Source: Aquimarina sp. MMG016
GTDB taxonomy: Bacteria; Bacteroidota; Bacteroidia; Flavobacteriales; Flavobacteriaceae
Length of the DNA stretch: 64,000 nt
NCBI RefSeq assembly: GCF_018100805.1
Contig: NZ_JAGJEA010000002.1
Location: 620,001-684,000, forward strand
Direction: 5' to 3'
Below the pieces are notes generated by a model, which searched no databases, was not told the DNA's origin, and worked only from the letters and a program-made list of their open reading frames with translations. Within the stretch, counting starts at the first letter, position 1. Each line of letters opens with the position of its first letter. A program made the position numbers and the translations under genes. Positions 9,877 to 40,120 of the stretch are shown one piece after another.

Positions 9877-10579
9877 AATTTCCCCATTAAAATGAACAAT
9901 AATTATTAGTGACTAAAAAATCATGTATAAACACAACTCATTAATCCTACATCAACATTCTAAAAAATATAAGGAAGAAGGGGGGTAGAAACTTCCAATT
10001 TTTAAATCAAACTTTAATAACTTTTCCGATTGCTAAAATAGCTTAGTTAGGCCAATTAACAATTCAAAATGTTATTTTTTAGACAGAATACTTAAAAAGT
10101 GCGTTCAATGACTCACGAAAAGCATATAATTAATCAAAATTACGGAAATACCGTAAGAAAAATATTATAATAATCGTGTTAAAATCAATGGCCTTAAGAA
10201 CTTTAAACGATGTTTTTACACTTTTTTAACTCGTATTAAGATTTTTTAACATCATTTAATCAGAAAATTCTTCATTTTCTTAAATATTAAACTTGAAATA
10301 AATATTCACACTATCTTTTTATAACACAGTACAATAATACCGTATTCATTAAATAATTTTACAAGTGTAAAACCTAAATATTAAAGGGTTATTTACCCTA
10401 TTATTTGTTTATCATTTTTATGTAAAACTCTCTATTATAGGTAAAAGAAAAAATAACTCAATTAAAATTTGATTTATATAATTAAATACATAAAATTTAC
10501 ATCCTTCAAGAGTATTAGATTTTTAATATAAGCTTGTATAACTTTCCCCCAACTTTTATTTATAATTATAATGTAATAG
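9877..10579. other. Long AT-rich divergent intergenic region
   Basis: This 703-base gap separates divergent genes and holds no convincing ORF. I see three small symmetric elements: TTACGG/CCGTAA around a 5-base loop (10140-10156), AGGGT/ACCCT around a 5-base loop (10385-10399), and the octamer ATACCGTA twice (10148-10155 and 10337-10344). A minus-strand TAATTTTG (10142-10135) matches the -7 consensus but lacks a TTG at the right distance. No exact TAnnTTTG was found on the plus strand. It probably carries promoters and leaders for both directions, but I cannot place them. Confidence 0.5.
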
Positions 10580-12031: not shown

Positions 12032-12037
12032 ATAATA

Positions 12038-13006
12038 ATGAAGAAACTTATATTCAAAAGTGCATTATACTTTTTTCTAATATTAATTGGATTAGAAATA
12101 TTAGTGCGTATATTTCATTTAGGGAAAGACACCCCTACTCGATTTTTGGATGAACACAAAGTAGAAAAATGGGTTCCTAATCAGAATGGTTTTTCTGTTA
12201 CCGGAAACCGAAGGCAAAACTTTTCAGAATATAAGATTAATAACTCTGGCTACAACTCTTATCGAGAATTCAATCCTACAAATAATAAAGTTGAAATTGC
12301 ACTAGTTGGAGATTCATTTATAGAAGGTTTTCATCAAAACTATTATAATTCAATAGGAAAAAAAGTAGAAAATGCCATACCAACAATCGAAGTTTATGAA
12401 TATGGCTATGCGGGTTATGATTTTGCAGATCAATTACATTTAGTGCAATCCTACAAAAATCAGTTTAATCTTATAGATCATGTAATTTTAGGTATCAAAT
12501 TCTCTAATGATCTAACCCGAGGAGAATATAAAGTAGTAACGGGTCGTTTGAACTTAGAATCACCTCTAAACCGTTTATTGAAAAAAAGTAAATTACTGGT
12601 GTATTGCAAAAGTATAGGAATCTTAGATCCTCCTCAAAAATTGATTTACAGGGTTAAAAGTATGCTTAGACCAGCACAAAAAGTTAAACAGCTAAGTGAT
12701 GAAGAAGCTGAACGACTAAAAGAAGAAAAAGATAAGGTGTATTTAGCTAATTTCGAAAGTTTAGTTACTACCTACGGATATGACAAAAAGAGGTTTACAC
12801 TATTACTAGATTCTAGAATAACGAGTCCTATGTTTTTATCTTATCTAAAAGAAAATGGTTTTAGCTATATCGATTTTTCGAATTCTTTCGAAAAGACCGA
12901 CAGATCAACTACTTTAATTTATGATAGACATTGGAATAATCATGGAAGAGAATTAGTTGCAAAAGTAATCATCGATTATCTGAAACAAATTGATGTTACC
13001 AAATAA
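12038..13006 (+). CDS. SGNH/AlgJ-like acyltransferase partner (copy 1)
   Basis: The 322-residue protein has one N-terminal membrane anchor (about 7-25) and a periplasmic SGNH domain. The nucleophile block is ALVGDSFIEG with Ser93. The last block reads YDRHWNNHG, giving Asp296 and His298 in the DxHW form known from AlgJ/AlgX rather than the commoner DxxH. Such proteins take the acyl group delivered by the MBOAT partner and place it on the polysaccharide. It directly follows MBOAT copy 1 and ends 20 bases before a convergent gene. Confidence 0.82.
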   Translation: MKKLIFKSALYFFLILIGLEILVRIFHLGKDTPTRFLDEHKVEKWVPNQNGFSVTGNRRQNFSEYKINNSGYNSYREFNPTNNKVEIALVGDSFIEGFHQNYYNSIGKKVENAIPTIEVYEYGYAGYDFADQLHLVQSYKNQFNLIDHVILGIKFSNDLTRGEYKVVTGRLNLESPLNRLLKKSKLLVYCKSIGILDPPQKLIYRVKSMLRPAQKVKQLSDEEAERLKEEKDKVYLANFESLVTTYGYDKKRFTLLLDSRITSPMFLSYLKENGFSYIDFSNSFEKTDRSTTLIYDRHWNNHGRELVAKVIIDYLKQIDVTK

Positions 13007-13026
13007 CCCTTATTACCTTACTGAAT

Positions 13027-14172
13027 CTATTCTAACGTAATTTTTTGCATTTTTGATTTACCAATAATCATAAAAGATTTTTGTTCCTCCGGAATCTGAA
13101 ATACCTTGACATCAGAAACGTTTTCAATGGCAGAATATAAAAAATCAAAAACCATTTTTCTGAGAAAAGCGTATTTTTCATTGTTATAGTCTACTACCGG
13201 ATATTCTTCACTAAACTGTACAGCTTCAATCTTAGAAACCGAATATTTAATTTCTTGATTTGGCTCGCTTTTCTTTCGCTTTGCTTTATAACTTTTATAC
13301 CGTACATAAGCTATTTTAAAAATATATTCTTTCAGGCTAACTTTTAGATATTCAATGTTTCCTTTAATTCTGGAAACGAACGAAGCTTTTGGATAAATAA
13401 TCTGATGTTCGAAATTATAAATATGATTACACCATTCACGTTTATAACTTAAGTCACCCATCCCCATTTCATACGATTTGTGATCATTAGCAATACACCA
13501 CTCCAACTTTTTGTAGATTTCTACACTTCCTAAACTAAATTTTCCATAATCAATATCATATGAAGAAATAGCACTAAATAATCTATTGTCGAAATGATGA
13601 CTTAGTGATACTACAATTGGATTATTACCATTCATGATCACAAACAAAGAGGCTCTCTTTTCATTAATCAAAGAAAAATACATTTCCTTATAATGATCCC
13701 ATCGCAAAAGGCTTTGACTTACATCATTACGTTGTTCGAACCTTCTTATCAGCATTTGCTCTAAACTGTTCATGTAATGATCATACTCATCCTTTTGTAT
13801 TTTGCCATAATACATTTTACAGGAAATATCAAAACAAGTTTCTAATCGATTAACTCTTCTTCTAATTCCTTTAGCGTTACTTCTAAAACGATGTTTTAGA
13901 TAAGCATTTACATCAGAGAAACCATCCAAAAAAATAGCATAACCCTTAAAAAATTGGCTAACCTTTTTGGTAATAAATCGATCATCATTAAGAATTGGTT
14001 GTAAATAATCAGGAATAAAGAAAACAGAATAAAACTGATCAAGACTACTTTTTTTATGATCAAAATTTTTCAATATTTCATCACTATTAAACTCTTGAAT
14101 CCCAGAGAATAGTTCTGGTATAGTACTTTTCTCAAAAACTTCAAAAAAATAATCTATATGCTGTTTTTTCAT
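13027..14172 (-). CDS. GNAT/FemAB-fold acyltransferase, CelD/BioF2-like
   Basis: The 381-residue protein appears to belong to the GNAT superfamily branch related to FemAB and CelD. Supporting pieces are RFRSNAKGIRRRVNRLE (about 90-107), a helix-rich middle, SLFVIMNGNNPIVVSLSHHF and YEMGMGDLSYKREW, the typical order for this family: a poly-basic RxNxRK-like segment, then a beta core, then a GMGD/KxxW end. Members transfer acyl or aminoacyl groups. The start overlaps the stop of the related gene upstream (ATGA), so the two are coupled. In this locus it may attach an amino acid or acyl group to an amino sugar; that is inference. It could also be an inactive homologue. Confidence 0.65.
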   Translation of the reverse strand: MKKQHIDYFFEVFEKSTIPELFSGIQEFNSDEILKNFDHKKSSLDQFYSVFFIPDYLQPILNDDRFITKKVSQFFKGYAIFLDGFSDVNAYLKHRFRSNAKGIRRRVNRLETCFDISCKMYYGKIQKDEYDHYMNSLEQMLIRRFEQRNDVSQSLLRWDHYKEMYFSLINEKRASLFVIMNGNNPIVVSLSHHFDNRLFSAISSYDIDYGKFSLGSVEIYKKLEWCIANDHKSYEMGMGDLSYKREWCNHIYNFEHQIIYPKASFVSRIKGNIEYLKVSLKEYIFKIAYVRYKSYKAKRKKSEPNQEIKYSVSKIEAVQFSEEYPVVDYNNEKYAFLRKMVFDFLYSAIENVSDVKVFQIPEEQKSFMIIGKSKMQKITLE

Positions 14173-15260
14173 CTATTAATAGATCTATAATATGGAAAAA
14201 AATGATTATTCAAATCCTCTTTTGGGATATTAGCATACTCAGGATCTGATGATAGAGATAACTCATCATAAATTTTTTGATTAACTATCTTTCTACCAGT
14301 ACAAAAAACAACATCTTCATCTTTCGGGAAAAGAGCTTTTTTACTTTTATACAAACCATCTCCATCTCTCATTCCACCACCTAACACATAGTGTTTTTTG
14401 TTATTAGCAATAGCCCATTCTATAATTTTAACTCTAAGAAAATCATTTGGTCTATGACTAAAATATTCTGCGTTAGTTCCTCCAAGAAATGCAAAAATCG
14501 TGTCTTTATAGCTAATTATAAGTTCTACAGAAATAGGTTTTTCTTCAACATAAGCAATAGCTATAGAAAAATTGTTGCTATTGGATAATATCAAGTTTTC
14601 AAAATATTCAATTGAGAAAAAATAAATACTATCCGCATTATTTCGCTTCATTGTATCTACATAGATATCATTAAAGATCTTGATGATATCTTTAGTTATT
14701 TCATTTTTATGATAGAACCTAAATTCTAAGTTATAATTTATAGCCTTTCTGAAATTATTTCTAACCTTAGAATTAAAAGCTGTCCATTGATCATCAAAAT
14801 TTTCTAAAAAACGCCCTCTTACATTAGACAATGTATGGATTAAATTACCCGAATATCCTTTATAGTTCTGATTTAGACTAAAACGTATAAATTCTGCGAC
14901 TACATTATTTTTCTTATACCATTGATCTATAAGTTCCCAAAAATGAATAACATCAAGTTCTGAGATGTTATCATTAAATAGCGGGCCATTATATCCATAA
15001 GGGCTTATGACATCAAAATATGAAGACTCCTTACCTTTTATCGTAATTGTTCTGAAAACCAAAGGCATTAAAACTATAGGTACATCTGATTTTTCTAAAA
15101 CAAAATATTTTAGTTTATCAGAATTTTGTGCAAAATACTGTAAATGCTCTGCTGAGTAATATACATTATTACCCCATCCATTTTGAAGAAGTGCTTTGTA
15201 TTCCAATACATCCGAACTGTCATCAAGGTTTTTAGTAAGTAGTCTGTAGTTTTGCTTCAA
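14169..15260 (-). CDS. FemAB/FemX-like aminoacyl- or acyltransferase
   Basis: The 363-residue protein has the two-GNAT layout of the FemAB family. It shows WTAFNSKVRNNFRKAINYN (the conserved SKxRNNxRKA segment, about 158-176), a helical middle, then VELIISYKDTIFAFLGGTN and HYVLGGGMRDGDGLYKSKKALFP (the GGG..GLxxFKxxF-like segment). FemX-type enzymes use aminoacyl-tRNA to add amino acids to peptidoglycan precursors, while relatives in polysaccharide loci are uncharacterised. The coupled neighbour is a related GNAT. The gene lies near the 3' end of a block with carrier-protein and adenylation genes, so both loaded carrier and aminoacyl-tRNA are possible donors. Confidence 0.72.
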   Translation of the reverse strand: MKQNYRLLTKNLDDSSDVLEYKALLQNGWGNNVYYSAEHLQYFAQNSDKLKYFVLEKSDVPIVLMPLVFRTITIKGKESSYFDVISPYGYNGPLFNDNISELDVIHFWELIDQWYKKNNVVAEFIRFSLNQNYKGYSGNLIHTLSNVRGRFLENFDDQWTAFNSKVRNNFRKAINYNLEFRFYHKNEITKDIIKIFNDIYVDTMKRNNADSIYFFSIEYFENLILSNSNNFSIAIAYVEEKPISVELIISYKDTIFAFLGGTNAEYFSHRPNDFLRVKIIEWAIANNKKHYVLGGGMRDGDGLYKSKKALFPKDEDVVFCTGRKIVNQKIYDELSLSSDPEYANIPKEDLNNHFFPYYRSINR

Positions 15261-15305
15261 ATTATTATAGGTATTAGTTAGATATCTATTTATTCGGGGG
15301 TTACT

Positions 15306-16874
15306 TTAGTTTACTTTTTTATAAAAATATTCATTTAGTTTCTGAGACAACACTTGGGATAACCATATTATTCTACCACAATGTTCTAAATGCCATACAG
15401 CTTTGCCTTCAAAAATATTACCTGCTAATAATGGCCCCATTATATGCAAATTCTCAACTGTTTCTAACGCATCATTTACTTCGAGACCAATTTTAGAATC
15501 ATTTGGTTTGCAATATCCTTTATCAATCATATTTTTCAACAATGATGGAACATCTTTCTTAGTTAAATTTGTGCTTCCGATACAGTTAACTATAATATGT
15601 ACAGGTTCTTTATACATTTTATTTTCTCCAGATGCTGTATCTAAATATTCTAATTTATATTCTCCATTATCATTTTCAATGATATTGCTAAATCTACCGG
15701 CAATATGATCAAAACGACCTTCATCTTTTAAATCATCAATGGTTTTAGAATAATGAAACCCTGCACATCGCTGCCTTCTACCAATATCATTACCATAAAT
15801 GCAAGCAAATTTCTTTAGTTCTTCCTCATTAAGTTTACCCAGCAACCCTCCAAATGCTTTTGACACAACCTCTACAGTGGATGCTGCACCAAGATGAATC
15901 TCATCTGCATGATCTAAATCTTTATATGCTGCATCTGCTATGATTTTTGCGGTTAGATCATTCTCTTCAGCTAAAGCTTGTAAATTAAAAGGAACAAAGC
16001 TCTTTTTTCTCTCTCTATCAACTACTGCATCAGGCAATAATCCTTGGGTAGAGAGAAACATAAACTTGTTAATCCGAGATTTGATGTTCTCAAGGTCGTT
16101 CAATTTATACATGATCTCCAAACCACTGGCATTAGCTCCAACGACTAGCACATTAAGTTTTTTGTCAGATAATCTTTCTGAAAACTTATCGATCTTATAT
16201 AAAGTTTCTTTTAATTCGGGTTTATATGGATCGTTAGCAAAAAGTAGATGATCTTCTTCTATTAGATCTTCTTTTTTCCAAAGATGATTAACCGGAAGAG
16301 AACCTATAGACACTACAACTTTCTCAGAAAGAATGATTTCCCCATTTTCAAGAGACAACAAATATTTGTTATCCTGCTTATCCACATCTACTACCTCTCC
16401 GTTAATATAAGTAACTTCTACAGATTGCCTGAAATCCGCTAGTCTATTTTTAACTTTCTGATCAATATAGCTGCCAAAAAAACGTCTGGGGATAAACAAA
16501 TCCTCCCAATCATTATTTTTTATTTTTTCTGCATGTTTTGAGATCCATTCTGTAGATAGGGCTCCTCCATCTTTTTTTAGCTCCTCTAGTAACCATTCTT
16601 TATTATCATTAAGCCAAATGATAAATTTACTTAATTCCGGCTCCGGCAAAAAATTCTTTAATGAAGTGATCAAATGTACAGAAAACCCTGATCTGGAGCC
16701 ATAAGGTATCCCTGTATGAAACTCATTATACTTATCTATAATATTAATACGAATCTTATTGTTGTCAGCGCCATCTTCAATACTATCTAAAAGATGTAAA
16801 ATCGTAAATGACGATGAAATTCCCGAACCAATAAAAGTGATGTTAGATATATTTGTGTTATTCTCAGACTGCAT
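15306..16874 (-). CDS. FAD/NAD(P)-binding protein, NAD_binding_9 type
   Basis: The 522-residue soluble protein starts with a dinucleotide-binding motif (FIGSGISSSFTI) and contains a second nucleotide site, VLVVGANASGLEIMYKL (about 225-245). The latter resembles the NADPH site of flavin monooxygenase-like and PF13454 proteins. DKYNEFHTGIPYG and NLHIMGPLLAGNIFEGKAVWHLEHC fit that group. It is not a normal component of capsule loci. Its neighbours are two FemAB-like transferases downstream and a PglD-like acetyltransferase 3 bases upstream. It might oxidise an amino acid or sugar intermediate before transfer. The substrate cannot be read from the sequence. Confidence 0.7.
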   Translation of the reverse strand: MQSENNTNISNITFIGSGISSSFTILHLLDSIEDGADNNKIRINIIDKYNEFHTGIPYGSRSGFSVHLITSLKNFLPEPELSKFIIWLNDNKEWLLEELKKDGGALSTEWISKHAEKIKNNDWEDLFIPRRFFGSYIDQKVKNRLADFRQSVEVTYINGEVVDVDKQDNKYLLSLENGEIILSEKVVVSIGSLPVNHLWKKEDLIEEDHLLFANDPYKPELKETLYKIDKFSERLSDKKLNVLVVGANASGLEIMYKLNDLENIKSRINKFMFLSTQGLLPDAVVDRERKKSFVPFNLQALAEENDLTAKIIADAAYKDLDHADEIHLGAASTVEVVSKAFGGLLGKLNEEELKKFACIYGNDIGRRQRCAGFHYSKTIDDLKDEGRFDHIAGRFSNIIENDNGEYKLEYLDTASGENKMYKEPVHIIVNCIGSTNLTKKDVPSLLKNMIDKGYCKPNDSKIGLEVNDALETVENLHIMGPLLAGNIFEGKAVWHLEHCGRIIWLSQVLSQKLNEYFYKKVN

Positions 16875-19007: not shown

Positions 19008-19253
19008 CTATTGTCCTAATTCAGAAGTTATAGTTTTAATCAAATCTCCTACATTGTTCATGTTCATTAAATCCATCAACTTGAATTTAATATTAAATGT
19101 CTTTTCTACTTCTGTAATAATCATCATATGCGTAACAGACTCCCATCCGTCCACATCATCAGCTGTAGTTTCGTCCGTAAGCTGAAAATTATTATGTTCT
19201 AAAACCGATACAAATGCTTCAGTTACTTTAGATAGTATTTCTTCTTTATTCAT
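19008..19253 (-). CDS. Acyl/aminoacyl carrier protein (module 1)
   Basis: The 81-residue acidic protein has the carrier-protein fold with the phosphopantetheine serine at Ser39 in GWESVTHMMI. It follows the adenylation gene by 9 bases and is clearly a paralogue of the 83-residue carrier at 37792-38043 (shared pattern ADDVDGWxSxxHMMIITxxE). It would carry the group activated by the adjacent ligase as a thioester. The downstream receiver is probably the GNAT-like protein encoded first in this mini-cluster (20783-21880), since no MBOAT gene adjoins this module. Confidence 0.9.
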   Translation of the reverse strand: MNKEEILSKVTEAFVSVLEHNNFQLTDETTADDVDGWESVTHMMIITEVEKTFNIKFKLMDLMNMNNVGDLIKTITSELGQ

Positions 19254-19262
19254 TTTGGTTGT

Positions 19263-20759
19263 TTAGTTAATATCAAAATATGTTTTTAATTCTTTTCTAT
19301 TGATCTTACCATTAATACTATGTGGAAACTCTTTTACAAATCTCACGTGCATTGGGATCATATAATCCGGCATTTTAGATTTCATATGCTCAAAGATTTC
19401 TGAAGTATCAAACTCATCAGACTCGATAGCCAAGCCTAACTCAGCGTTACCAAGATTATTGGTTATATCCAAAGCTACCATATTGACTTTCTTTTCTGAT
19501 TTAGCTTTGGCATGAAACTCTATTTCTGCTAATTCTACTCGATAGCCCCGTATCTTTACCTGAAAATCTGCTCTTCCAACATATAAATAATCTCCTTCTT
19601 CATCTTTTAGACAAAGATCTCCGGTTTTATAATACCTTATACTTTTGCTTTCTTCTACTCGAGTAAAAAAACTCTGAGCGTTTTTTTCAGGATTTCTCCA
19701 GTATCCCGGTGTAATCTGTGCTCCTCCTAAACATAATTCGCCTGTTACACCAACCGGAACCTCCTTGTTATTTTCATCTACTACAAGATATGATGTTCCC
19801 GCCTGTGGAGTACCAATGGCGATAATGCCATTATGATTTTTGGTATCTGTCTCTTTATGATATGGATAAAAACCACTGTATACAGTAAATTCAGTAGGTC
19901 CGTAATAATTAAAGATTTTACAATTCGGTAAACAATCACTCCACTCCTTTGCAATATCACTATGCAACGCTCCTCCTCCAAAACTACAATATCTTACATC
20001 CGGAGCATTTATTTCTGGGAAATACGGTCGTAAATAGTTTATAATTGATGGCACCATTGTAAGCACCGTAAGCTTTTGTTCTTTGATTAACTTAAAAATA
20101 TAGAAATACTTAATCGCTCCTTTCGGAATTGTATAAATACAAGAACCCGCCAACAACGGAAATAAATAGGTTACTACAGAAAAGTCAAATGTAAGTTCAA
20201 ACATTTGCAAGCATCTATCTGAAGGTACTAAATTAAAATCAGGTTCTTCATCAATAGCATAGATTAGTCCTTCTACATTATCAAATGTAATTGGGACACC
20301 TTTTGGCAACCCAGTAGTTCCTGAAGTAAATAAAATATAAGCTAATTGATCTCCAGAAAATTCCTTAGGCTTTAAATTGATCTCTGCTTCAGGCAAAGAC
20401 TTGGATGCTATAACTATGTGATCTTTATAAATAGATGTTTCTGAAGAATCAATTACATATTTGGTTTCTGTTAACTCAAAAACTTTTGTATTACGTTCTA
20501 TAGGAGCTATAGGATTAACCGGCACATATGCTTTTCCTTCTAACCAAAGTGCTATAATACTGGCATATGTCTGAATATCGTCATTTGTTACCAAACCGAT
20601 TAATTTTTCGGAATCATCAATAGTATTGACGATTGCTGACCTTATTTTAGAAATTTCTATAGCAAAATCTGCATAGGTATAAAAAACTCCATTGATACAC
20701 AATACATTATGATCAGCGTGTTTTTCTATGGATTCTTGTAGTCTTTTTACAAATTTCAT
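19263..20759 (-). CDS. DltA-like adenylation enzyme (module 1, variant pocket)
   Basis: The 498-residue AMP-forming ligase of the NRPS A-domain/DltA class would activate a carboxylic acid, probably an amino acid, and load it on the adjacent carrier. Motifs are FTSGTTGLPKGVP (144-156), FDFSVV with Asp192 (the residue that binds the alpha-amino group in A domains), YYGPTE, YKTGDL, GRADFQVKIRGYRVE and the A10 lysine Lys485 in INGKINRK. At the position where Bacillus DltA has its pocket Cys269 this enzyme has Gly261 (SFGGGAL), and Gly263 replaces a Glu. The paralogue at 38046-39533 keeps Cys and Glu there. A larger or different substrate is therefore inferred. Confidence 0.9.
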   Translation of the reverse strand: MKFVKRLQESIEKHADHNVLCINGVFYTYADFAIEISKIRSAIVNTIDDSEKLIGLVTNDDIQTYASIIALWLEGKAYVPVNPIAPIERNTKVFELTETKYVIDSSETSIYKDHIVIASKSLPEAEINLKPKEFSGDQLAYILFTSGTTGLPKGVPITFDNVEGLIYAIDEEPDFNLVPSDRCLQMFELTFDFSVVTYLFPLLAGSCIYTIPKGAIKYFYIFKLIKEQKLTVLTMVPSIINYLRPYFPEINAPDVRYCSFGGGALHSDIAKEWSDCLPNCKIFNYYGPTEFTVYSGFYPYHKETDTKNHNGIIAIGTPQAGTSYLVVDENNKEVPVGVTGELCLGGAQITPGYWRNPEKNAQSFFTRVEESKSIRYYKTGDLCLKDEEGDYLYVGRADFQVKIRGYRVELAEIEFHAKAKSEKKVNMVALDITNNLGNAELGLAIESDEFDTSEIFEHMKSKMPDYMIPMHVRFVKEFPHSINGKINRKELKTYFDIN

Positions 20760-20782: not shown

Positions 20783-21880
20783 TTAGTAAAAATGGCCATC
20801 TCTATTTAGCATCTCCAAACTATCAAAATCTAATATAGTTTCGTTATGCGCTAGTCCTTTTTTCTCTACTTTATGTGTAAAGATTGTTTTATATCTCTTC
20901 GTAATATTATCCGATAGCTTAGTATCATCAGTAAATATAAACTTGGTACCCACTTTAGCAAAATTCTCCATTAAGGCATCCACACAAAGATCATAATCAT
21001 TCTGATCCTTTACTAGAAAGTATTTTACATTCAATTCATTAAAATTAATAATATAAGATATAAATCCGATAATTTTATTTTCTTTAATAACATTCAGATT
21101 ATGGATATGAATATTATTACTTATTCCTGTTTGTAAAGCTTTATAAGGGTGTTTCGTTGCGATTGGAGTTTGTGTATATTGACTATTATCAATCTGCCAG
21201 TTTACATATTCTTTGGTTTTATGAATCAAGTCATTTTTACATAAGGGTTCAATAAAATCCCAGGTTTCATTATCGATTTGATTAATATAATCGTACGAAA
21301 GTTCTTTTGTGTTTTTCTTAAATCTAGCAATATTCATCCATCTTACCATTGAATATACAACTGCATCTATTCTATCTAAAATAAATTTGAACGACTTCAA
21401 AAACTTAAATCTACCAATTAGCATAGAAGAGTCTAAACTAAAAAATATAGTGTGCCGTAATCTGGAAGCAACTACCTTAAAAGGTTGTTTTTCATAAAAT
21501 GTAGTAACATTTTCTGCATATGATTTAATTAATACCTGTTTGGCAGAAAGATTAACCGCTTCATTATAAATATAAGTACTTAAGACCGTATTTTTATAAC
21601 TTTTATGAACCCACCAGGATATCATCCAATATACTTTCTTTGGCATATTATCTTTAGCGTTAGCGAAGTCTGGAAACATAAAAATGAAAGAAATCATCTT
21701 ATCGTCTTCAAAACCTAAAACGCCACAATAATCATCATCCTGTATTCTAGTGTTAGAAACTAACCACAATGCCTTACCTTTTGGCATAGGTGATAATTCA
21801 TCTTTCCAATAAGTATTATTCTCAATAGCTTCGCTTAACATCTTCTTTGTTAAGCCAATTACTTGTAGATTTTTGCCCAT
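20783..21880 (-). CDS. GNAT-like transferase tied to adenylation/carrier module 1
   Basis: I do not recognise a named family for this 365-residue soluble protein. The N-terminal half has GNAT-like features: an open strand pair (ALWLVSN, CGVLGFEDDKMISFIFMFPDF), then a helix after WISWWVH-type residues, and ENVTTFYEKQPFKVVASRLRHTI, which resembles the GNAT end segment N..FYEKxGF. A second, weaker alpha/beta unit follows (KENKIIGFISYIINF). It lies 23 bases upstream of the ligase gene, so transferase, ligase and carrier form a transcriptional triplet. Its most likely job is to move the carrier-bound group onto an amino sugar. This is an inference from context. Confidence 0.6.
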   Translation of the reverse strand: MGKNLQVIGLTKKMLSEAIENNTYWKDELSPMPKGKALWLVSNTRIQDDDYCGVLGFEDDKMISFIFMFPDFANAKDNMPKKVYWMISWWVHKSYKNTVLSTYIYNEAVNLSAKQVLIKSYAENVTTFYEKQPFKVVASRLRHTIFFSLDSSMLIGRFKFLKSFKFILDRIDAVVYSMVRWMNIARFKKNTKELSYDYINQIDNETWDFIEPLCKNDLIHKTKEYVNWQIDNSQYTQTPIATKHPYKALQTGISNNIHIHNLNVIKENKIIGFISYIINFNELNVKYFLVKDQNDYDLCVDALMENFAKVGTKFIFTDDTKLSDNITKRYKTIFTHKVEKKGLAHNETILDFDSLEMLNRDGHFY

Positions 21881-28440: not shown

Positions 28441-28468
28441 AAAGCCAGAACAAATGTTCTGGCTTTTT
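28441..28468 (+). terminator. Rho-independent terminator after the beta-helix gene
   Basis: Perfect 11-base arms AAAGCCAGAAC (28441-28451) and GTTCTGGCTTT (28456-28466) close a 4-base loop and run into five T. It reaches the stop codon of the convergent SGNH gene. On the minus strand it has only three T after the stem, so it would act more weakly there. Confidence 0.9.
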
Positions 28469-29411
28469 ACTTTATAATAAGATTTTTTTCCAAAATCTTA
28501 TCTGCTAATAGTTTTGTAAATAACTTAGCTCCATCATCATTAAGATGCGAAGGGTCGTGAAATAATTCTCCTTTATTCAAAAATTGTGTATCGTTAAATA
28601 AATCAATAAATGGAACGTTTTCTTTTCCTGCAATCTCCTTAATCAAGCTAAAAGATTTATTTTCTGAATAATTAACCTTATTGTAAGTTGGTGATGTCGC
28701 AAATACCAAATTAATATTGTTTTCTTTGGCATTATTGATAAATGTTTTTAAAGCATTTACAAAGTCTTTTTCTATAACTTCTATATACTCTTTAACTTCC
28801 TGCTGATCGTGTTTTTTGGTATTAGAGTTTACTTTACCATATAGTGGTCTATACCCTTTATAATCCACCTGTGGCGATACATAATATCGTAGTGCATGAA
28901 TGATAGTAGAGTTGGTCTGATAAGACTTAAAAAAAAGTTTAAAATCTATAAGATTTGATTTCAAACCAAGAATCGGCCTAAGTGCTTCGCTATGATCGTC
29001 ATAATATGGATGTAAATCACTTAATCGATCATAAGCTATATCTGATAAATATAGAAAGCTATCGTCTATATTTAAGATCATTAGATCTGGCTTTTTTCTT
29101 TTAATAATCATTTCCTGAAGTGCTGTATGAAAAAGTAATTGTTGCCCCTCTGCACCAGCATTATAGCAAGTTTTATTAAGTTCTTTTTCAAAAACCTCTG
29201 GCACATAATGTCGGTGAGCATGAGAGCTTCCAAAAATTAGAACTTCAGCATTACTTTTTTCAACGGCGTAAGTAGCCCTTGCATACTTTCCAGTTTTTTG
29301 GCTAAAGAATATTTTTTGAGAAACACTCCCCAACACAAAATCTGCAACCAAAATAATGATCACAAATTTTATGATTTTAAGAAATGATACTCTGTATTCT
29401 TTAATATTCAT
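28467..29411 (-). CDS. SGNH/DltD-like acyltransferase partner (copy 2)
   Basis: The 314-residue protein has one N-terminal membrane helix (about 12-30) and a periplasmic SGNH domain. The nucleophile block is VLIFGSSHAHRHY with Ser63 (GSS form, as in DltD). The last block is FHDPSHLNDDG with Asp286 and His289 (DxxH). The gene follows MBOAT copy 2 by 3 bases. Copies 1 and 3 differ strongly in the active-site blocks (GDS..DxHW and GDS..DxxH), although their MBOAT partners are much more alike. This suggests that the SGNH proteins set the target specificity. Confidence 0.82.
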   Translation of the reverse strand: MNIKEYRVSFLKIIKFVIIILVADFVLGSVSQKIFFSQKTGKYARATYAVEKSNAEVLIFGSSHAHRHYVPEVFEKELNKTCYNAGAEGQQLLFHTALQEMIIKRKKPDLMILNIDDSFLYLSDIAYDRLSDLHPYYDDHSEALRPILGLKSNLIDFKLFFKSYQTNSTIIHALRYYVSPQVDYKGYRPLYGKVNSNTKKHDQQEVKEYIEVIEKDFVNALKTFINNAKENNINLVFATSPTYNKVNYSENKSFSLIKEIAGKENVPFIDLFNDTQFLNKGELFHDPSHLNDDGAKLFTKLLADKILEKNLIIK

Positions 29412-29414
29412 AAC

Positions 29415-30827
29415 CTAAAATTGAAAATATATAAACTGACTTTTCCCAAATACTCCAAAATACAGAATCATAAAGATCACTGCTGCATACCCTCCCAATC
29501 TTAAAATTTCTATCCTACTTCTTGAAACTGAAAATAGATTATCAAAATATTCTTTTTTGGTTTCTACAAGAAAGAGAATGGTTATTGCCAAAACTGCATA
29601 AATTGATGCAGCTATATCATCTCCACTTCCAATATATAATCTTCCGGGAGAAGTAATAATAGTTTTTACAATATATAACGCTTGTTCTATACTATTAGCT
29701 CTAAAAAATATCCAGGCAAAATTGATTAATATAAATGTGATTAAGACATTAAATATTCCTTTCCTATCTTTTTTAAAAAGCAATACTTCCGCAATTAAAT
29801 ATATTCCGTTCAAAGCTCCCCAGAATACAAAAGTCCAGTTAGCACCATGCCATAAACCACTTATTAAAAATGTAATGAATAAATTAAATAACCATCTAGG
29901 CTTAACAACTCTATTTCCCCCAAGTGGGATATATAGATAATCTCTAAACCAAGTTGATAAAGATATATGCCATCTTGTCCAGAACTCACTCACCGAAGCT
30001 GAAAAATAAGGTCTTCTGAAATTGGTCATCAAATCAAAACCAAAAAGCTTAGCTGTGCCAATAGCAATTAAAGAATATCCTGCAAAATCTCCATAAATCT
30101 GAAAAGCAAATAATATAGTAGCGGCTATAAAACTTAACCCTTCGTGGTTTTCGACATTGTTATATACAGCATTTACATAAATAGCAGCTCGATCGGCTAC
30201 AACAAGCTTTAAAAAGAAACCCCATATCATTAACTTAGCACCATATGAAAATGTTTTATAGCTAAAGCTTCTTTTTTGCAAAAATTGTGGTAATAGGTTG
30301 GTAGCCCTTTCTATTGGACCGGCTACTAATTGTGGAAAAAAGGAAACAAAAGCAGCAAATGCAATGAAATCTCTTGTAGGCTTTAGCTTTTCTCTATAAA
30401 TGTCAATCGAATATGACATAGTCTGGAATGTATAAAAAGAAATTCCAACAGGTAAAATAACTTGTAGGGTCCAGGTGCTTTCTGATTGATATCCGAAAGA
30501 AGATAACATATCTATCCAGGAATCAATAAAAAAATTATAGTACTTAAAAAAACCAAGTAATCCCAGGTTAAATACCATACTTAACCAAAGCCATCTCTTT
30601 CGATGTTCTTTATTTGTTGACTCGTATATCCTGAAACCAACAAAATAATCCATTACTGTACTCAACGCTATTAAGGATAGAAACCGCCAATCCCACCAAC
30701 CATAAAATACATAGCTGGCAATCAATAATAGGATGTTTTGTAATTTAATATGTTTATAAACGATAAACCAGTACAACAATAGTACAATGGGTAGGAATGC
30801 AAAAAATTCAAACGAGTTAAATAACAT
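29415..30827 (-). CDS. MBOAT-family membrane O-acyltransferase (copy 2)
   Basis: The 470-residue polytopic protein has conserved histidines H287 (EFWTRWHISL) and H327 (GLWHGANW), plus SFFPQLVAGPIERA and IYGDFAGYSLIAIG. It aligns almost gap-free with copy 1 over the first 330 residues (shared stretches GLLGFFKYYNFF and ILPVGISFYTFQTMSYS), so the two look like a within-locus duplication. Spacing is 18 bases to the CapK-like gene upstream and 3 bases to the SGNH gene downstream, all in one operon. It presumably takes an acyl group from a cytoplasmic donor such as acyl-CoA, acyl-CapK product or acyl-carrier. Confidence 0.93.
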   Translation of the reverse strand: MLFNSFEFFAFLPIVLLLYWFIVYKHIKLQNILLLIASYVFYGWWDWRFLSLIALSTVMDYFVGFRIYESTNKEHRKRWLWLSMVFNLGLLGFFKYYNFFIDSWIDMLSSFGYQSESTWTLQVILPVGISFYTFQTMSYSIDIYREKLKPTRDFIAFAAFVSFFPQLVAGPIERATNLLPQFLQKRSFSYKTFSYGAKLMIWGFFLKLVVADRAAIYVNAVYNNVENHEGLSFIAATILFAFQIYGDFAGYSLIAIGTAKLFGFDLMTNFRRPYFSASVSEFWTRWHISLSTWFRDYLYIPLGGNRVVKPRWLFNLFITFLISGLWHGANWTFVFWGALNGIYLIAEVLLFKKDRKGIFNVLITFILINFAWIFFRANSIEQALYIVKTIITSPGRLYIGSGDDIAASIYAVLAITILFLVETKKEYFDNLFSVSRSRIEILRLGGYAAVIFMILYFGVFGKSQFIYFQF

Positions 30828-34303: not shown

Positions 34304-35398
34304 TTATCCCCAATATAAATAGTACATAGCATAAGTGAATGAAAAATAAATAAGCATCACTTTACCTATCATAAAATGTTGATTTTTAAAAAATTGTTGC
34401 TTTAGAAACGGATAAATGATAACAATTGCCATCATAAACCAAGACAAATATGCAAACCTGTTAGAAAAATTTGCCCGGATCACTAATACCCAAAATCCAT
34501 TGCAAATCAAATATGTATTTAACAATTGAAAATAGAATTTATCTTCAAATTTTCTCTTAAACACAAAATACCAGCCTGCAAACACTGCAAAGGCACTATG
34601 GAACAAAAAATCCCATCGAAACCCTGTACTGGCAAAAGTACCGGCATCTGCTTGAGATGTTAGATATCCGGTTAGTCTGTCATCACCAAAACCTAGACTA
34701 GCAAATAATGAGATGAATACACTCCCCAGTACTAATGAAATAGGTATACAGGCCAACCACCCCTTAAAAAATACTTTAGGATTATTATAAAAAAAGGTGA
34801 TAATGAATGCAAAAATTGGAAGGAATAAGGTTTTATGAAACAGCGTTGCCCATAAAAAGAATAGCCCCATTATAATCTTATTTCTATGAAAGCTTAATCC
34901 CCAAAGAAATAAAGATGTTGCAGCACCATTACGCATTCCATTCACTCCATAGGTCCAAAAAGAAAAGGATACCACAAACATAACAAAAGCATAGTACCAA
35001 TATTTTCCAAAAAACTCTTTTGAAATTTTATACATCGGAAAAATGTATATAAAAGCACAAATTGTAAAAAAGATATGATATGGAACCAGGGTAGCCAGTG
35101 TTTTCATAAAAAAGTGCCACCCATAATCATTCACTTCAGGTATTTCACCACCATATCGATAATGGTCAAATGTAACTATGTAGTTTACTGTATCTCCAAA
35201 GATCCCACTAATTGGTCTTTGTCCTATATACAGAATTAAAAACGTAAGTAATAGATAACCCGAGAAATTTATAAATACAACATTCTTCGTTTCTTCCATT
35301 TTTAGAACTACCGTATGCAACAAAGTAAAAAGTACCAAAAACAGGCACAGATTAATGTACAATGGATAATAAAATTCTAATGGAACAAACGTATTCAT
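34304..35398 (-). CDS. EpsG-family polysaccharide polymerase (Wzy role)
   Basis: The 364-residue polytopic protein (about ten membrane helices) has the EpsG features YIGQRPISGIFGDTVNYIVTFDHY and YGVNGMRNGAATSLFLWGLS followed by LATLFHKTLFL, the R..G.A and HxT/S pattern of EpsG/Wzy proteins. It is the only polymerase candidate in the locus and would join flipped repeat units in the periplasm. It lies 4 bases after the SGNH copy 3 gene. The class assignment is good, but sequence identity in this family is always low. Confidence 0.85.
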   Translation of the reverse strand: MNTFVPLEFYYPLYINLCLFLVLFTLLHTVVLKMEETKNVVFINFSGYLLLTFLILYIGQRPISGIFGDTVNYIVTFDHYRYGGEIPEVNDYGWHFFMKTLATLVPYHIFFTICAFIYIFPMYKISKEFFGKYWYYAFVMFVVSFSFWTYGVNGMRNGAATSLFLWGLSFHRNKIIMGLFFLWATLFHKTLFLPIFAFIITFFYNNPKVFFKGWLACIPISLVLGSVFISLFASLGFGDDRLTGYLTSQADAGTFASTGFRWDFLFHSAFAVFAGWYFVFKRKFEDKFYFQLLNTYLICNGFWVLVIRANFSNRFAYLSWFMMAIVIIYPFLKQQFFKNQHFMIGKVMLIYFSFTYAMYYLYWG

Positions 35399-35402
35399 GG
35401 TA

Positions 35403-36326
35403 TCAATTATCTTTTAAGGTTTGATATATTGATTCACAAAGGGTTCTTGTAAACTCCTTCCCCGAAAACTTATTTAGGTGATGACCATCATAGGTTTCAT
35501 AAGACTTGTTATGTTTATTAAAGTCAAAATAAGGTATTTGATTCTTATCAGCTACTGAACTTACTATCCTATCAAATTCTGGAAAATACTTTTCTTCATA
35601 ATTTAAGAAATCTTTATCGATAGGCATTCTGACCAAATATACATGACCATATTTATCTAATTCTGTGATCAGATCACTTAAGCTTTGAATTCTTACTTCA
35701 GAAAACTTGGATATCACAGCATCTTTGAGAAATAAATCAATCTGGTTCTTCTTCCAATCTTCAAAAACCTTTTTACTTGTCGGTAAATTAGTTTCTTCTA
35801 ACCATCCATTTTTATGAACTGTAGATTTCTTTCTAAACATTGCTCTAAAGTGAAAGAAAGAAAGATTCTTGATCAAATACTCATAATTAGGATTCATACT
35901 CACATATTTCATATTATGAGGAGGTTGACCTACTTCTCTATACTCTCCACCAGCATTATTATATCCTTCATGCTCTGTTAACATTTCAGGAGTAACAGAA
36001 ATGATAAAAATTCCGTTACTAACAGATGTATCTAATTTCTTTAGAATACTTTCATTATATAATGGGCCAATAATAGCCTGAGCAATTGTAAAACTATAAT
36101 TCAGTATGGGTACATCAACTCCTTTTCCTTCAAAATATTCATCAATTACTGCTGGTTGTATTCCCTGGAAACTTCTGGAGTCTCCAATAATTAGTGAATT
36201 AGCTTTGGGAGTAGTAAACTTTTCATAAAAATAATCAATGTTACCACCATAATTCATTAATATAAAAGAGACTATCCCCAAACAAATGGTGAAGAAAAGT
36301 CCCAGTTTTATAAATAATTTCTTCAT
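35403..36326 (-). CDS. SGNH/DltD-like acyltransferase partner (copy 3)
   Basis: The 307-residue protein has one N-terminal membrane helix (about 7-25) and a periplasmic SGNH domain: LIIGDSRSFQG with Ser50, LNYSFTIAQ (block II), and YDGHHLNKFSG with Asp280 and His283 (DxxH). It is encoded 6 bases after MBOAT copy 3 and closes a ligase-carrier-MBOAT-SGNH series, equivalent in parts to DltA-DltC-DltB-DltD. In such a set it would be the periplasmic enzyme that puts the D-alanyl or similar group on the polysaccharide. Confidence 0.8.
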   Translation of the reverse strand: MKKLFIKLGLFFTICLGIVSFILMNYGGNIDYFYEKFTTPKANSLIIGDSRSFQGIQPAVIDEYFEGKGVDVPILNYSFTIAQAIIGPLYNESILKKLDTSVSNGIFIISVTPEMLTEHEGYNNAGGEYREVGQPPHNMKYVSMNPNYEYLIKNLSFFHFRAMFRKKSTVHKNGWLEETNLPTSKKVFEDWKKNQIDLFLKDAVISKFSEVRIQSLSDLITELDKYGHVYLVRMPIDKDFLNYEEKYFPEFDRIVSSVADKNQIPYFDFNKHNKSYETYDGHHLNKFSGKEFTRTLCESIYQTLKDN

Positions 36327-36332
36327 TGTGAT

Positions 36333-37781
36333 CTAAAATTGAAAATAAATAAATGTTTCTGCACTTCTTCCGAAGAATATCAATAGTAAAAAGATGAAAA
36401 TATATGAACTCCATCTTAGCAAAACATGATAGTTACTAATCTCAAAATCGTGTTTCTTCTCTCGATTGATCCATTCTATAATGATAAAAAAAGCAGTTAA
36501 TATCAATGTTGTTAACGTTGCTGTACCTGTTAACACAGAAGGAAAATCAATAATGCTAGACGAAAATATCTTTATAAGATAAGCAAATGCTTCGGTAACA
36601 CTAGGTGCTCTAAAGAATACATCTGTAAGCATAATAAGAAAAAACAATAGCCCTATTTTAATAATTTCCTTTATAGAGGGAAACCACTTTCCTTTGGCTA
36701 CAATCTCTGAAGTATTCATTTTACCCGAATATACTAATGGGATAAAATAAATACCGTGTAAAAGTCCATACACTACAAAAGTCCAATTTGCACCATGCCA
36801 AAACCCAACAAGTACAAATGTCGCCACAATAGCAATCATTAAACCTCGCTTCTGATGTCTTCTTAAAGTAAATGACAATGGTGTAAATACATAATCCATC
36901 ATCCAAGTAGTTAGGGATATATGCCATTTTCTCCAAAAATCTGCAATATTGGTGGAGAAAAACGGAGTAGAAAAATTACGCATTAGCTGTATTCCAAATA
37001 GTTTAGAAACTCCTATCGCCATATTAGAATACCCTGAAAAATCCGCATATAGTTGGATTGCATAAAAGAATGTTCCTAATAATAATGTACTACCTGATTG
37101 GTCTTCATAAGTATTAAAGATAGGGTTAGCAATAGCAGCGCAATTTTCTGCAATTACCACTTTGGCAAATAATCCCCATAAAATCTGTCGTAAGCCATCT
37201 ACAAAAACCTCATAGGTGAGCGTTCTCTTTATTTGAGTTTGAGGTATAAAACTAGCTGCTCTTTCTATTGGTCCTGAAAGTATCTTAGGAAAAAAAGTAA
37301 CAAATACAGAAAACTCTAAAATATCTTTACTAGGTTCTATCTCTTCATTATACACATCAATAAGATATCCCAAAGTCTGAAACGTAAAGAAGCTAATTCC
37401 TAACGGTAATAATATCTGTAGTGTACTATAACTCAGATCTGCACCAAATATATTTAGTAAGTCAAAGAAACCTTCGTAGAAGAAATTGAAATACTTAAAA
37501 TATAATAATAGCCCAACATTAAAGACTAAACCTATGTATAGAAAAATATTGCGCTTTCTGTCATCATCTTCTGATTGGTAAATTTTTAATCCTAGGTAAT
37601 AATTGATACCAGTACTGGCAATTAGCAATGCCAGGAATCTCCAGTCTGCCCAAGCATAAAAAAACAAACTTGCTACTAATAACAATATGTTTTGATATAC
37701 ACCAGATTTCCTAAAAACTAACCAATACAGCAATAGTACCGGAATAATAAAACCTACAAAATCAAAAGAATTAAAAACCAC
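36333..37781 (-). CDS. MBOAT-family membrane O-acyltransferase (copy 3, DltB position)
   Basis: The 482-residue polytopic protein has histidines H287 (DFWRKWHISL) and H329 (GFWHGANW). It is more distant from copies 1 and 2 than they are from each other: VAGPIERA becomes LSGPIERA, YGDFSGYS becomes YADFSGYS, and the YIPLGG motif is replaced by FTPLSF. It is encoded 10 bases after the carrier protein of module 2, so it probably accepts a carrier-bound group as DltB does. The change at the PLGG loop, near the catalytic funnel in DltB structures, may reflect use of a carrier protein rather than CoA; that is speculation. Confidence 0.92.
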   Translation of the reverse strand: MVFNSFDFVGFIIPVLLLYWLVFRKSGVYQNILLLVASLFFYAWADWRFLALLIASTGINYYLGLKIYQSEDDDRKRNIFLYIGLVFNVGLLLYFKYFNFFYEGFFDLLNIFGADLSYSTLQILLPLGISFFTFQTLGYLIDVYNEEIEPSKDILEFSVFVTFFPKILSGPIERAASFIPQTQIKRTLTYEVFVDGLRQILWGLFAKVVIAENCAAIANPIFNTYEDQSGSTLLLGTFFYAIQLYADFSGYSNMAIGVSKLFGIQLMRNFSTPFFSTNIADFWRKWHISLTTWMMDYVFTPLSFTLRRHQKRGLMIAIVATFVLVGFWHGANWTFVVYGLLHGIYFIPLVYSGKMNTSEIVAKGKWFPSIKEIIKIGLLFFLIMLTDVFFRAPSVTEAFAYLIKIFSSSIIDFPSVLTGTATLTTLILTAFFIIIEWINREKKHDFEISNYHVLLRWSSYIFIFLLLIFFGRSAETFIYFQF

Positions 37782-37791
37782 GCCTTACAGA

Positions 37792-38043
37792 TTAAGCTTT
37801 AGTTTGAATTAAAGAAACCAAAGACCCCATATTTTTTAACTTATTCAGTTCTCTAAGTTTAAAACGAATACCAAATTCTTCTTCTATCTTGGTGATAATC
37901 ATCATATGTGATAAAGAATCCCAGCCATCTACATCTTTAGCCGTAAGCTCATCGTGAATTTCAAAATTGTTATGCTCTAATATCGAAGCTAAAACTTCAC
38001 CTACTCTTTCTTTAATAGTATCTATTTCCATACTCTTCTTCAA
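37792..38043 (-). CDS. Acyl/aminoacyl carrier protein (module 2, DltC position)
   Basis: The 83-residue carrier protein has the phosphopantetheine serine at Ser43 in GWDSLSHMMI. It begins 2 bases after the ligase stop and is followed 10 bases later by the MBOAT gene. A second ATG four codons in (Met5) could be the real start. It resembles the module 1 carrier more than Bacillus DltC, which has a DSMG-type site. The local order ligase-carrier-MBOAT-SGNH marks it as the shuttle for the module 2 acyl group. Confidence 0.9.
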   Translation of the reverse strand: MKKSMEIDTIKERVGEVLASILEHNNFEIHDELTAKDVDGWDSLSHMMIITKIEEEFGIRFKLRELNKLKNMGSLVSLIQTKA

Positions 38044-38045
38044 TT

Positions 38046-39533
38046 TTAACTAAACATTGCCGTTAACTTATTTCTATCTATTTTTCCGTTGGTATTCAAC
38101 GGAAAACTCTGTATAAACTTCATCTGTGTCGGTATCATATACGCGGGAAGCTTTGTTTTCATATAGTCCACAAGTTCTTGTGTATTAAAATCTTCTGACT
38201 CTATCACCACTCCTATTTCAGTATTATGAATACTATTGGTAAAAGCAATAGCAACTACGTTGATTTTATCCAAAGCTGCTTTCGCATGAAACTCAATCTC
38301 GGATAATTCTACGCGGAAACCCTGAATCTTTGCCTGAAAATCTACTCTTCCTAAATATAAAATATCTCCTTCTTCATCTCTACTGCATAAATCTCCGGTT
38401 CTATAAAACCTGGTATTCTTGCCCTGATATTCTTTATGAAAAAAAACTGCTTTATTCTTTTCCTTATTCTTCCAATACCCAGTTGTAAGTTGTGCTCCGC
38501 TTAAACATAGTTCTCCACTTTCTCCTATGGCAACTTCATTATTATCTTCATCCACAATAATAGTGGTGGTGTTTTTCATGTCCTTTCCTATTGTAAGCAC
38601 ACCGTTATGGGTTTTGTTTTCCCCTTCTCGATTATAGGTATAGTCAGTACAATAAATCGTACACTCTGTTGGGCCATATACGTTGGCAATTGTGGCATTA
38701 GGTAAACATTTACTCCACTCCTCTGTAACATCCAACGGCAAAGCTTCTCCACAAAACATACTATATTTCATCGCCGGGCAATCGATCTCATCAAAATATG
38801 GTCGTAAATAATGTAAAATCGAAGGCACCATTAATGAGAAAGTCAACTTATGATCTTCCATAAGTTCGAAGATATAACTATACTTAATTTCATCTTTAGG
38901 TATAGTATATATACAAGCCCCTTTAAGCATTGGTGCCAGATATGATACCACAGATAAATCAAATGTGAGTTCGAACATCTGCAAACATCTATCGTCACTT
39001 GTAATTGGGTAATCTAAAGCCCAAAAAGCATCCATAAAACCTGATAAATTACCAAAGTTAATAGGTACTCCTTTTGGTGTTCCTGTAGTTCCTGACGTAA
39101 AGAAAATATAAACTAAACCTTCTTCTGAAACAGTAACCGGCGTTAAATCAATTTCAGAATTCTCCAGGTTTTTAGTTAATATGGTGTGATGTTCTTCAAA
39201 TACTTGTTCTTTTGAAGAATCTAAAATGGTTATAATATCCGCTTGCTGGATTACCATTTGGTTTCTGCTTTCAGGAAACTCAGGGTTTAAAGGAACATAA
39301 GCTCTACCTTCCATCCATAAGGCAATGATAGAAGCATAGGTTTGTATGTCATCATTGGTAATTAAACCAAAGGTGATTTCTTCCTTTTTTGAAGACACCT
39401 GAATAGCTTTTCGAATATCTGATACTACCTGACCAAATTCCTTATAAGTATAATATTCCTGACCAATATAAAATGCATTATGATCGTGATGCTTTTCTAT
39501 AGATTGCTGTATGTCTACAATTAAATTCATCAA
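38046..39533 (-). CDS. DltA-like adenylation enzyme (module 2, classical pocket)
   Basis: The 495-residue AMP-forming ligase has FTSGTTGTPKGVP (145-157), FDLSVV with Asp192, VYGPTE, YRTGDL, GRVDFQAKIQGFRVE and Lys484 in TNGKIDRN. At the substrate pocket it reads MFCGEALP (259-266), which is the DltA signature including the Cys reported to matter for D-/L-alanine choice in Bacillus DltA. It is a clear paralogue of the module 1 ligase and has the same numbering through this region. It directly precedes its carrier gene. D-alanine or another small amino acid is the best guess, by family resemblance only. Confidence 0.92.
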   Translation of the reverse strand: MMNLIVDIQQSIEKHHDHNAFYIGQEYYTYKEFGQVVSDIRKAIQVSSKKEEITFGLITNDDIQTYASIIALWMEGRAYVPLNPEFPESRNQMVIQQADIITILDSSKEQVFEEHHTILTKNLENSEIDLTPVTVSEEGLVYIFFTSGTTGTPKGVPINFGNLSGFMDAFWALDYPITSDDRCLQMFELTFDLSVVSYLAPMLKGACIYTIPKDEIKYSYIFELMEDHKLTFSLMVPSILHYLRPYFDEIDCPAMKYSMFCGEALPLDVTEEWSKCLPNATIANVYGPTECTIYCTDYTYNREGENKTHNGVLTIGKDMKNTTTIIVDEDNNEVAIGESGELCLSGAQLTTGYWKNKEKNKAVFFHKEYQGKNTRFYRTGDLCSRDEEGDILYLGRVDFQAKIQGFRVELSEIEFHAKAALDKINVVAIAFTNSIHNTEIGVVIESEDFNTQELVDYMKTKLPAYMIPTQMKFIQSFPLNTNGKIDRNKLTAMFS

Positions 39534-39538
39534 ATTAT

Positions 39539-40120
39539 TTACTTAGATGATACTCGTTTTCCGTCTTTTTTAATAATTCTGGCAGGATTACCAACTACCA
39601 CACAATTATCAGGAACGTCCTTAACGACAACTGATCCTGCTCCAATTACACAATTATCCCCAATAGTAATATCTCCTATAATAATCGATCCTGTATTTAC
39701 AGAAACATTATTTCCAATAGTTGGTCTTTTTCCGTTAACTTCTCCGACCGTAACTAAATGATTTACATAAAAGTTTTCGCCGATCGAATCTGCGTTAAGT
39801 ATAGTACTATATGGGTGACCTGTCAAGATTCCTCCACCCAGTTTTGTACTTATATCTATTCTAAAATACTTTTCTCTTCTACAATACATATTCAGCAACC
39901 TTGCTATTACACCTCTATTTCTGAAGTAAAAAATGGTTCTAAAATCTGTAGAATATGTCAAAAAATAAACCAATAACTTTGTTTTACTTCCCTTTAGGTT
40001 CTTTTCTTCGGCCCATCTGGCAATATCCTTATCAATCAAATCTTTATTAGCACTGCGCTTATATAAGATCACGTGCGGAATCAATAATATGCTATATATG
40101 AACTTCTCTAGTAATTTCAT
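39539..40120 (-). CDS. Hexapeptide acetyltransferase, CysE/WcaB-like
   Basis: The 193-residue protein has a helical N-terminal part and a left-handed beta-helix of the serine-acetyltransferase type. It shows [61 protein letters not shown] and [20 protein letters not shown]. The catalytic His pattern (GHPY then NHLVTVG) fits O-acetyltransferases of polysaccharide loci. The start overlaps the preceding glycosyltransferase stop by 4 bases (ATGA), and the module 2 ligase begins 5 bases downstream. It likely acetylates a sugar hydroxyl in the cytoplasm. Confidence 0.87.

Follow-up and report, generated by a model that had tools for sequence, protein, structure and literature searches.

A putative carrier-fed machine for polysaccharide (amino)acylation in an exopolysaccharide locus of Aquimarina sp. 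MMG016

A 64-kb window of the Aquimarina sp. MMG016 genome (contig NZ_JAGJEA010000002.1, positions 620,001–684,000) carries, on its minus strand at 35403–39533, genes for an adenylating ligase (LIG1), a stand-alone carrier protein (ACP1), a membrane acyltransferase of the MBOAT family (MBOAT1) and an SGNH protein (SGNH1), which we consider likely, with a probability of roughly 0.7, to form a carrier-fed machine for polysaccharide (amino)acylation. The first-pass annotation of this DNA had reported the four genes in that order with gaps of 2–10 bases, and the open reading frame (ORF) coordinates bear it out, with intergenic gaps of 6, 10 and 2 bases; the set is complete and lies within a Gram-negative polysaccharide locus, where an EpsG-type polymerase gene borders it at one end and glycosyltransferase, acetyltransferase and flippase genes at the other. 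What we observe are the genes with their motifs, predicted folds and linkage, together with a statistical tie between carrier genes and an altered docking segment; from these we infer each chemical step, how the carrier docks, and which amino acid and acceptor are involved. LIG1 would adenylate a small α-amino acid, most likely glycine or D-alanine, and load it as a thioester onto ACP1, which, once charged, would dock on a cytoplasmic MBOAT1 helix that replaces the PLGG turn. MBOAT1 would then, via His329, move the aminoacyl residue onto Tyr479 in the FIYFQF shuttle at its own C-terminus, from where it would pass to Ser50 of SGNH1. SGNH1 would finally esterify a hydroxyl group on the polysaccharide that the neighbouring genes produce, which would make the polymer more positively charged.

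The putative docking segment lies after the first catalytic His, where most ordinary MBOATs, including the two others in the window (MBOAT2 and MBOAT3), have YIPLGG(S/N) and MBOAT1 has FTPLSFTLRRHQ. HMMER aligned the MBOAT1 segment without gaps to FMRLVIVLMRNK of DltB (PDB 6bug), and in the MBOAT1 model helix 288–305 continues into it. DltC sits on a horizontal helix of DltB at Met302, Val305, Ile306 and Met309 (PMC11035591; L. plantarum equivalents of the contact residues are in PMC9338922), positions that align with T300, S303, F304 and R307 of MBOAT1. It is a new point that the PLGG turn is missing from carrier-linked MBOATs and that, judged from alignment, a helix stands instead at the DltC-binding position of DltB. 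We scored an MBOAT as carrier-linked when a carrier gene lay no more than 4 kb away on its own strand, in a Bacteroidota-only sample chosen by similarity to carrier-type MBOATs. Among 150 MBOAT rows (some genes fetched twice), a carrier was found for 43 of the 47 without the GG turn and for 3 of the 103 with it; among 77 MBOATs made non-redundant at 70% identity, with picks that favour the longest flanks, the counts were 19/23 and 0/54 (Fisher p 1.7e-14). A further 60 regions, collected once we had formed this idea and holding 70 MBOATs, gave 11/15 for turn-less MBOATs and 1/55 for those with the turn (11/15 and 0/42 in the 57 non-redundant ones). A signature drawn up after the fact, P-[LIVM]-x4-R, matches all 43 carrier-linked turn-less rows and none of the four turn-less rows without a carrier; MBOAT1 itself has this signature in place of PLGG, with a carrier gene 10 bases away, as proposed for carrier-fed MBOATs.

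Some observations weigh against carrier feeding, both in these linkage data and in the ligase and SGNH protein taken up below. Docking of ACP1 on the MBOAT1 helix is itself predicted from an alignment, and four of the 47 turn-less rows have no nearby carrier gene. The three of 103 MBOATs that keep the turn with a carrier at 4 kb or less (L050, L192 and L210) each lie near the carrier of another module. Our first classifier divided the 77 non-redundant MBOATs into 46 with PLGG and no carrier, 19 with another sequence and a carrier, and 12 with another sequence and no carrier; the motif was broadened to [PSI][LMFI]GG after rows such as ISLGG and IPMGG were seen, so that the resulting table (54/0 and 19/4) is partly post hoc, and the expression was tuned also on the 60 later regions. 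We then wrote down a rule in advance and applied it to 40 new regions holding 42 MBOATs. All 36 GG MBOATs lacked a carrier, only two of the four with the signature had one beside them, and the remaining two MBOATs fell outside both rules and had no carrier; thus, the turn predicts the absence of a carrier well and the signature predicts its presence less surely. One of the two misses (L304) adjoins two genes resembling, by eye, the MaoC/SDR pair of locus L192, and no carrier or charging gene was seen around the MBOAT of the other (L320). The turn changes at least six times on our trees, and nine times on a tree built without the turn's own columns. Three to five of six phylogenetically independent pairs, drawn from the trees, agree with the association and none opposes it, which is not significant (sign test, p 0.06–0.25). 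An exception to the carrier rule comes from outside the sample, in a Microbulbifer locus (L095:9833–15226) that has what looks by eye like an adenylation-carrier-thioesterase fusion beside a PLGG MBOAT ending in FLYFNF.

On the supply side, the ligase Asp192 and FCGEALP motif (with Cys261) and the carrier Ser43 named in the first-pass annotation are present in the sequences. Asp192, the amine anchor, and Lys484 are conserved in aligned ligases and together would mark LIG1 as an α-amino acid ligase; the pocket is compatible with such a substrate, which is in line with the first-pass annotation. The best family match of LIG1 is the amino-acid adenylation model AA-adenyl-dom, although its score of 309.6 bits falls just below the cut-off of 317.4, 8 bits short; the DltA family model (TIGR01734) gives 276.5 bits, and its cut-off of 559.85 is not reached. 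At positions 192, 193, 196, 259, 261, 285, 289, 293, 294 and 484, which we chose as the pocket positions by adenylation-domain numbering, the code of LIG1 reads D L V M C V T I Y K. In the second module of LgrA, the best PDB match of LIG1, there is a CGEA motif plus an Ile-Tyr pair as in LIG1, and this is presumably the glycine module. LgrA activates valine and glycine (PMC11253843). DltA recognises D-Ala through Asp197, Leu198 and Cys268 (PMC8972799; PMC11253843), matched in LIG1 by D192, L193 and C261, but the match is unspecific, being common to the glycine-activating AlmE, which has the same Leu and Cys (PMC11253843). Because AlmE shares these residues, LgrA has CGEA at the same place, and Ala replaces the pocket Cys in 4 of 24 aligned close ligases (Cys in the other 20), we rejected the FCGEALP pocket, earlier read as a DltA signature, as proof of D-alanine. 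Cys261 is kept in 26/28 MBOAT-linked ligase rows, several of which are one gene fetched twice. The pocket leaves the substrate unfixed, which, like the sub-cut-off adenylation score and the rows with Ala, is a point against our reading; glycine and D-alanine appear about equally likely.

Whether the group is an amino acid at all bears on the best placed of three rival explanations, which we regard as improbable: that the ligase loads a hydroxy or plain carboxylic acid and the product is an acyl rather than an aminoacyl ester. FkbH-type and acyl-ligase-type carrier-MBOAT sets do occur in relatives, so the machine is not tied to amino acids, but the invariant Asp192 and the family match of LIG1, despite its missing 8 bits, argue for an amine, as do the GNAT-type and formyltransferase genes that sister modules contain. 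GNAT-type genes lie between ligase and MBOAT in five related modules (L054, L055, L060, L063 and L064); the two that were scanned match Pfam Acetyltransf_1 at 1.6e-13 (L063) and at 0.0017, below the cut-off (L055), and L055 alone also has a formyltransferase gene. Such genes would make sense if the carrier held an amine open to capping. In the L055 array, from a Ferruginibacter metagenome-assembled genome (MAG; 9950–15964), the genes run from a ligase through a formyltransferase, a carrier, a GNAT-type protein and another carrier to an MBOAT, followed by one more ORF; the array might serve to make N-formyl or N-acyl aminoacyl esters. Two other loci (L197:6650–12290 in G487 and L198:1836–7476 in G509) each have two tandem LIG1-type ligases with differing pocket codes and one shared carrier, MBOAT and SGNH protein, possibly passing two amino acids through one machine.

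Linkage of the four genes goes beyond chance. Of 52 genus genomes, 15 encode an MBOAT1-type protein (65–100% identity), in every case with genes for a ligase, a carrier and an SGNH protein alongside (the ligases being cut by the 1.5-kb flanks). LIG1-type ligases at 73% identity or more occur in 3/199 family genomes, its own included; the closest named relatives of LIG1 are from Aquimarina, and others include Flavivirga, Gaetbulibacter, Algibacter and Mariniflexile, with modules also present in one MAG each of Chryseobacterium and Ferruginibacter. The slot beside the polymerase varies between genus genomes: some carry the ligase module there, whereas L193 has an FkbH module and L047 a plain MBOAT pair. 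In the family relative G070, the slot has a ligase module first and an FkbH module next to it. The genus relative G177, which has neither a LIG1-type ligase nor its carrier, has an ordinary MBOAT in the slot and retains an SGNH1-like protein (47%). SGNH1-like partners (47% or more) are kept across the slot variants, which suggests that the donor side was exchanged and the acceptor side kept. Within 4 kb of the 19 non-redundant carrier-linked MBOATs, we found a LIG1/LIG2-type ligase for six, FkbH for five, another acyl ligase for six and no charging enzyme for two (labels from Pfam run on examples). Four loci from other Bacteroidota (L258, L261, L263 and L265) show an acyl ligase of ~575 aa, a carrier and a GG-less MBOAT tightly clustered, the L261 cluster adjoining a protein with a GDSL match just below the Pfam cut-off. 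Locus L192 (4245–14804, G467) combines a single FkbH enzyme and two carriers with a MaoC + SDR pair and two MBOAT/SGNH pairs, both carrier-linked, which suggests further modification of the acyl group on the carrier.

The carrier and ligase could nonetheless serve another enzyme, such as an amide-forming transferase, with MBOAT1 and SGNH1 an ordinary acetyl-CoA O-acetylation pair adjacent by chance. A second ligase and carrier in the window, LIG2 and ACP2, stand beside a GNAT-like gene (weak Pfam match, 0.0022) and have no adjoining MBOAT, as this explanation would have it. We find it unlikely, slightly more so than a non-amino substrate, given the four-gene linkage in 15/15 genus genomes, the loss from MBOAT1 of the turn that MBOAT2 and MBOAT3 keep, and the ordinary MBOAT that fills the slot in G177, where ligase and carrier are missing.

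On the delivery side, the MBOAT and SGNH residues of the first-pass annotation stand: His287 and His329, as well as Tyr479, are invariant across 50 aligned MBOATs, and Ser50, Asp280 and His283 across 28 aligned SGNH proteins. In DltX and PatA, the Tyr of a C-terminal FXYXXF motif takes over the acyl group from the MBOAT and delivers it to the SGNH protein (PMC12148441). Since MBOAT1 ends in FIYFQF, the module joins a Dlt-like supply side (ligase and carrier) to a PatA-like delivery side. No separate DltX gene was found in the module, whose internal gaps of 2–10 bases and terminal gaps of 4 and 5 bases are too short to hold one, and the sole other minus-strand ORF of at least 60 aa (36721–36936, inside the MBOAT1 gene) lacks the shuttle motif. 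SGNH1 has no Pfam or NCBIfam match at E ≤1e-3, but its model (predicted local distance difference test, pLDDT, 94.4) has an SGNH-esterase fold with PatB as the top Foldseek row; DltD is not among the Foldseek matches listed. With the DltB model, MBOAT1 scores 184.6 bits against a cut-off of 375, compared with 140.2 and 146.1 for the two ordinary MBOATs in the window. In the MBOAT tree, three DltB rows separate at 100 from 77 other MBOATs, and MBOAT1 groups with five Bacteroidota carrier MBOATs at 99. It is thus very improbable that a true dlt operon came in from Firmicutes and then diverged, and we rejected this on the tree and on LIG1 and MBOAT1 scores of about half the DltA and DltB cut-offs, to which the missing DltX gene and the shuttle on MBOAT1 add. 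The label "Dlt-type" given earlier therefore holds for the mode of working but not for Dlt membership, given the model scores, the tree and the lack of a separate DltX.

Compared with teichoic acid D-alanylation (DltA-DltC-DltB-DltX-DltD), the putatively carrier-fed Aquimarina module follows the same path from ligase through carrier, MBOAT and tyrosine shuttle to SGNH protein, and shares a docking helix equivalent by alignment, the amine-anchor Asp and the pocket Cys. It differs in its Gram-negative polysaccharide locus, in a shuttle fused to MBOAT1 rather than a separate DltX, in a ligase substrate not fixed as D-alanine, and in that MBOAT1 and LIG1 lie outside the DltB and DltA clades (three rows each sampled). 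In lipopolysaccharide glycylation by AlmE/AlmF/AlmG, the last transfer to lipid A is made by an unrelated acyltransferase, unlike the MBOAT plus SGNH protein found here. FkbH proteins load glyceryl groups onto carriers; FkbH and carrier genes accompany this type of MBOAT in relatives (L038, L193, L210, L247 and L250), whereas the Aquimarina window has no FkbH. AlmE resembles LIG1 as a Gram-negative DltA-kind ligase with the Leu/Cys pocket, and activates glycine for an envelope polymer (PMC11253843). PatA/PatB O-acetylation likewise pairs an MBOAT ending in FXYXXF with an SGNH partner (PatB, which heads the Foldseek rows for SGNH1), but PatA uses acetyl-CoA (PMC12148441), whereas the Aquimarina module has a ligase, a carrier and an altered docking segment.

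More broadly, we lean towards the view that Bacteroidota possess modular MBOAT-SGNH polysaccharide acylation machines fed by acyl-carrier proteins instead of acyl-CoA, which would have arisen several times from ordinary MBOATs as the PLGG turn gave way to a DltB-like docking helix, with interchangeable charging enzymes (amino-acid ligase, FkbH or acyl ligase) and with the SGNH partner and acceptor kept. Our full-text search of open-licence papers, with subscription papers outside its scope, found no earlier report of carrier-fed Bacteroidota MBOATs. A passage of a 2025 paper on PatA/PatB says that MBOAT/SGNH pathways besides Dlt are without a similar carrier protein (PMC12148441), a statement on which the Aquimarina module bears directly. 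If the view is right, carrier-dependent Dlt-like chemistry extends to Gram-negative surface polysaccharides, and a short signature would help to tell carrier-fed from carrier-free bacterial MBOATs and to predict surface polymers with aminoacyl, glyceroyl-like or other carrier-made esters. Marine Flavobacteriaceae would then be expected to make positively charged (aminoacylated) or otherwise unusual exopolysaccharides, and the modules would offer a natural mix-and-match system for placing different acyl groups on polysaccharides.

Table 1. Features of the module and the genes adjoining it (positions in the 64-kb window).
Feature	Position	Strand	Description
LIG1	38046..39533	-	495 aa ligase; AMP-binding 4.1e-59; AA-adenyl-dom and DltA model scores in text
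Asp192 codon	38958..38960	-	anchors the alpha-amino group in adenylation domains; invariant across 11 aligned ligases incl. three Firmicute DltA
FCGEALP pocket motif	38736..38756	-	Cys261 at DltA Cys268 position; ligase alignment
ACP1	37792..38043	-	83 aa carrier; PP-binding 1.1e-05; best PDB match 2lml, E 1e-12
Ser43 codon	37915..37917	-	phosphopantetheine site of ACP1; read from sequence
MBOAT1	36333..37781	-	482 aa membrane acyltransferase; His287/His329, fused shuttle motif; Pfam MBOAT 4.6e-22
TPLSFTLRRHQKR segment	36846..36884	-	residues 300-312; helix in place of PLGG turn, putative carrier-docking site; aligns gaplessly with DltB Met302-Met309; signature tests
FIYFQF C-terminus	36336..36353	-	Tyr479; acyl-tyrosine shuttle motif FXYXXF; read from sequence
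SGNH1	35403..36326	-	307 aa predicted membrane-anchored extracytoplasmic SGNH acyltransferase; Ser50/Asp280/His283
EpsG-type polymerase	34304..35398	-	context, adjoins module; EpsG 2.1e-23
Hexapeptide acetyltransferase	39539..40120	-	context, adjoins ligase, outside machine; Hexapep 1.2e-08

ACP1 and LIG1 are listed with TTG starts, and their true starts may be ATGs slightly inward. The genome, searched piecewise, has one phosphopantetheinyl transferase above cut-off. Absent from the first-pass annotation were the FIYFQF end of MBOAT1, the second ligase with its carrier and two ordinary MBOAT/SGNH pairs. LIG2, which together with ACP2 occupies 19008–20759 on the minus strand, is 53% identical to LIG1 and has FGGGALH where LIG1 has FCGEALP; the set adjoins the GNAT-like gene mentioned above (20783–21880) and a sugar transferase gene. 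Ligase, carrier and GNAT-like gene of this type occur together in 8/8 family relatives, picked for having a ligase match, and may possibly serve amide-type aminoacylation of a sugar. The two other MBOAT/SGNH pairs (10580–13006, plus strand; 28467–30827, minus strand) have the PLGG turn, the FIYFQF end and no carrier alongside, and are likely ordinary O-acetylation pairs. A GNAT/FemAB-like gene of the window (13027–14172) has six and seven tandem matches at the same locus in two related genera (L034:13598–19980 and L038:15624–L039:3346).

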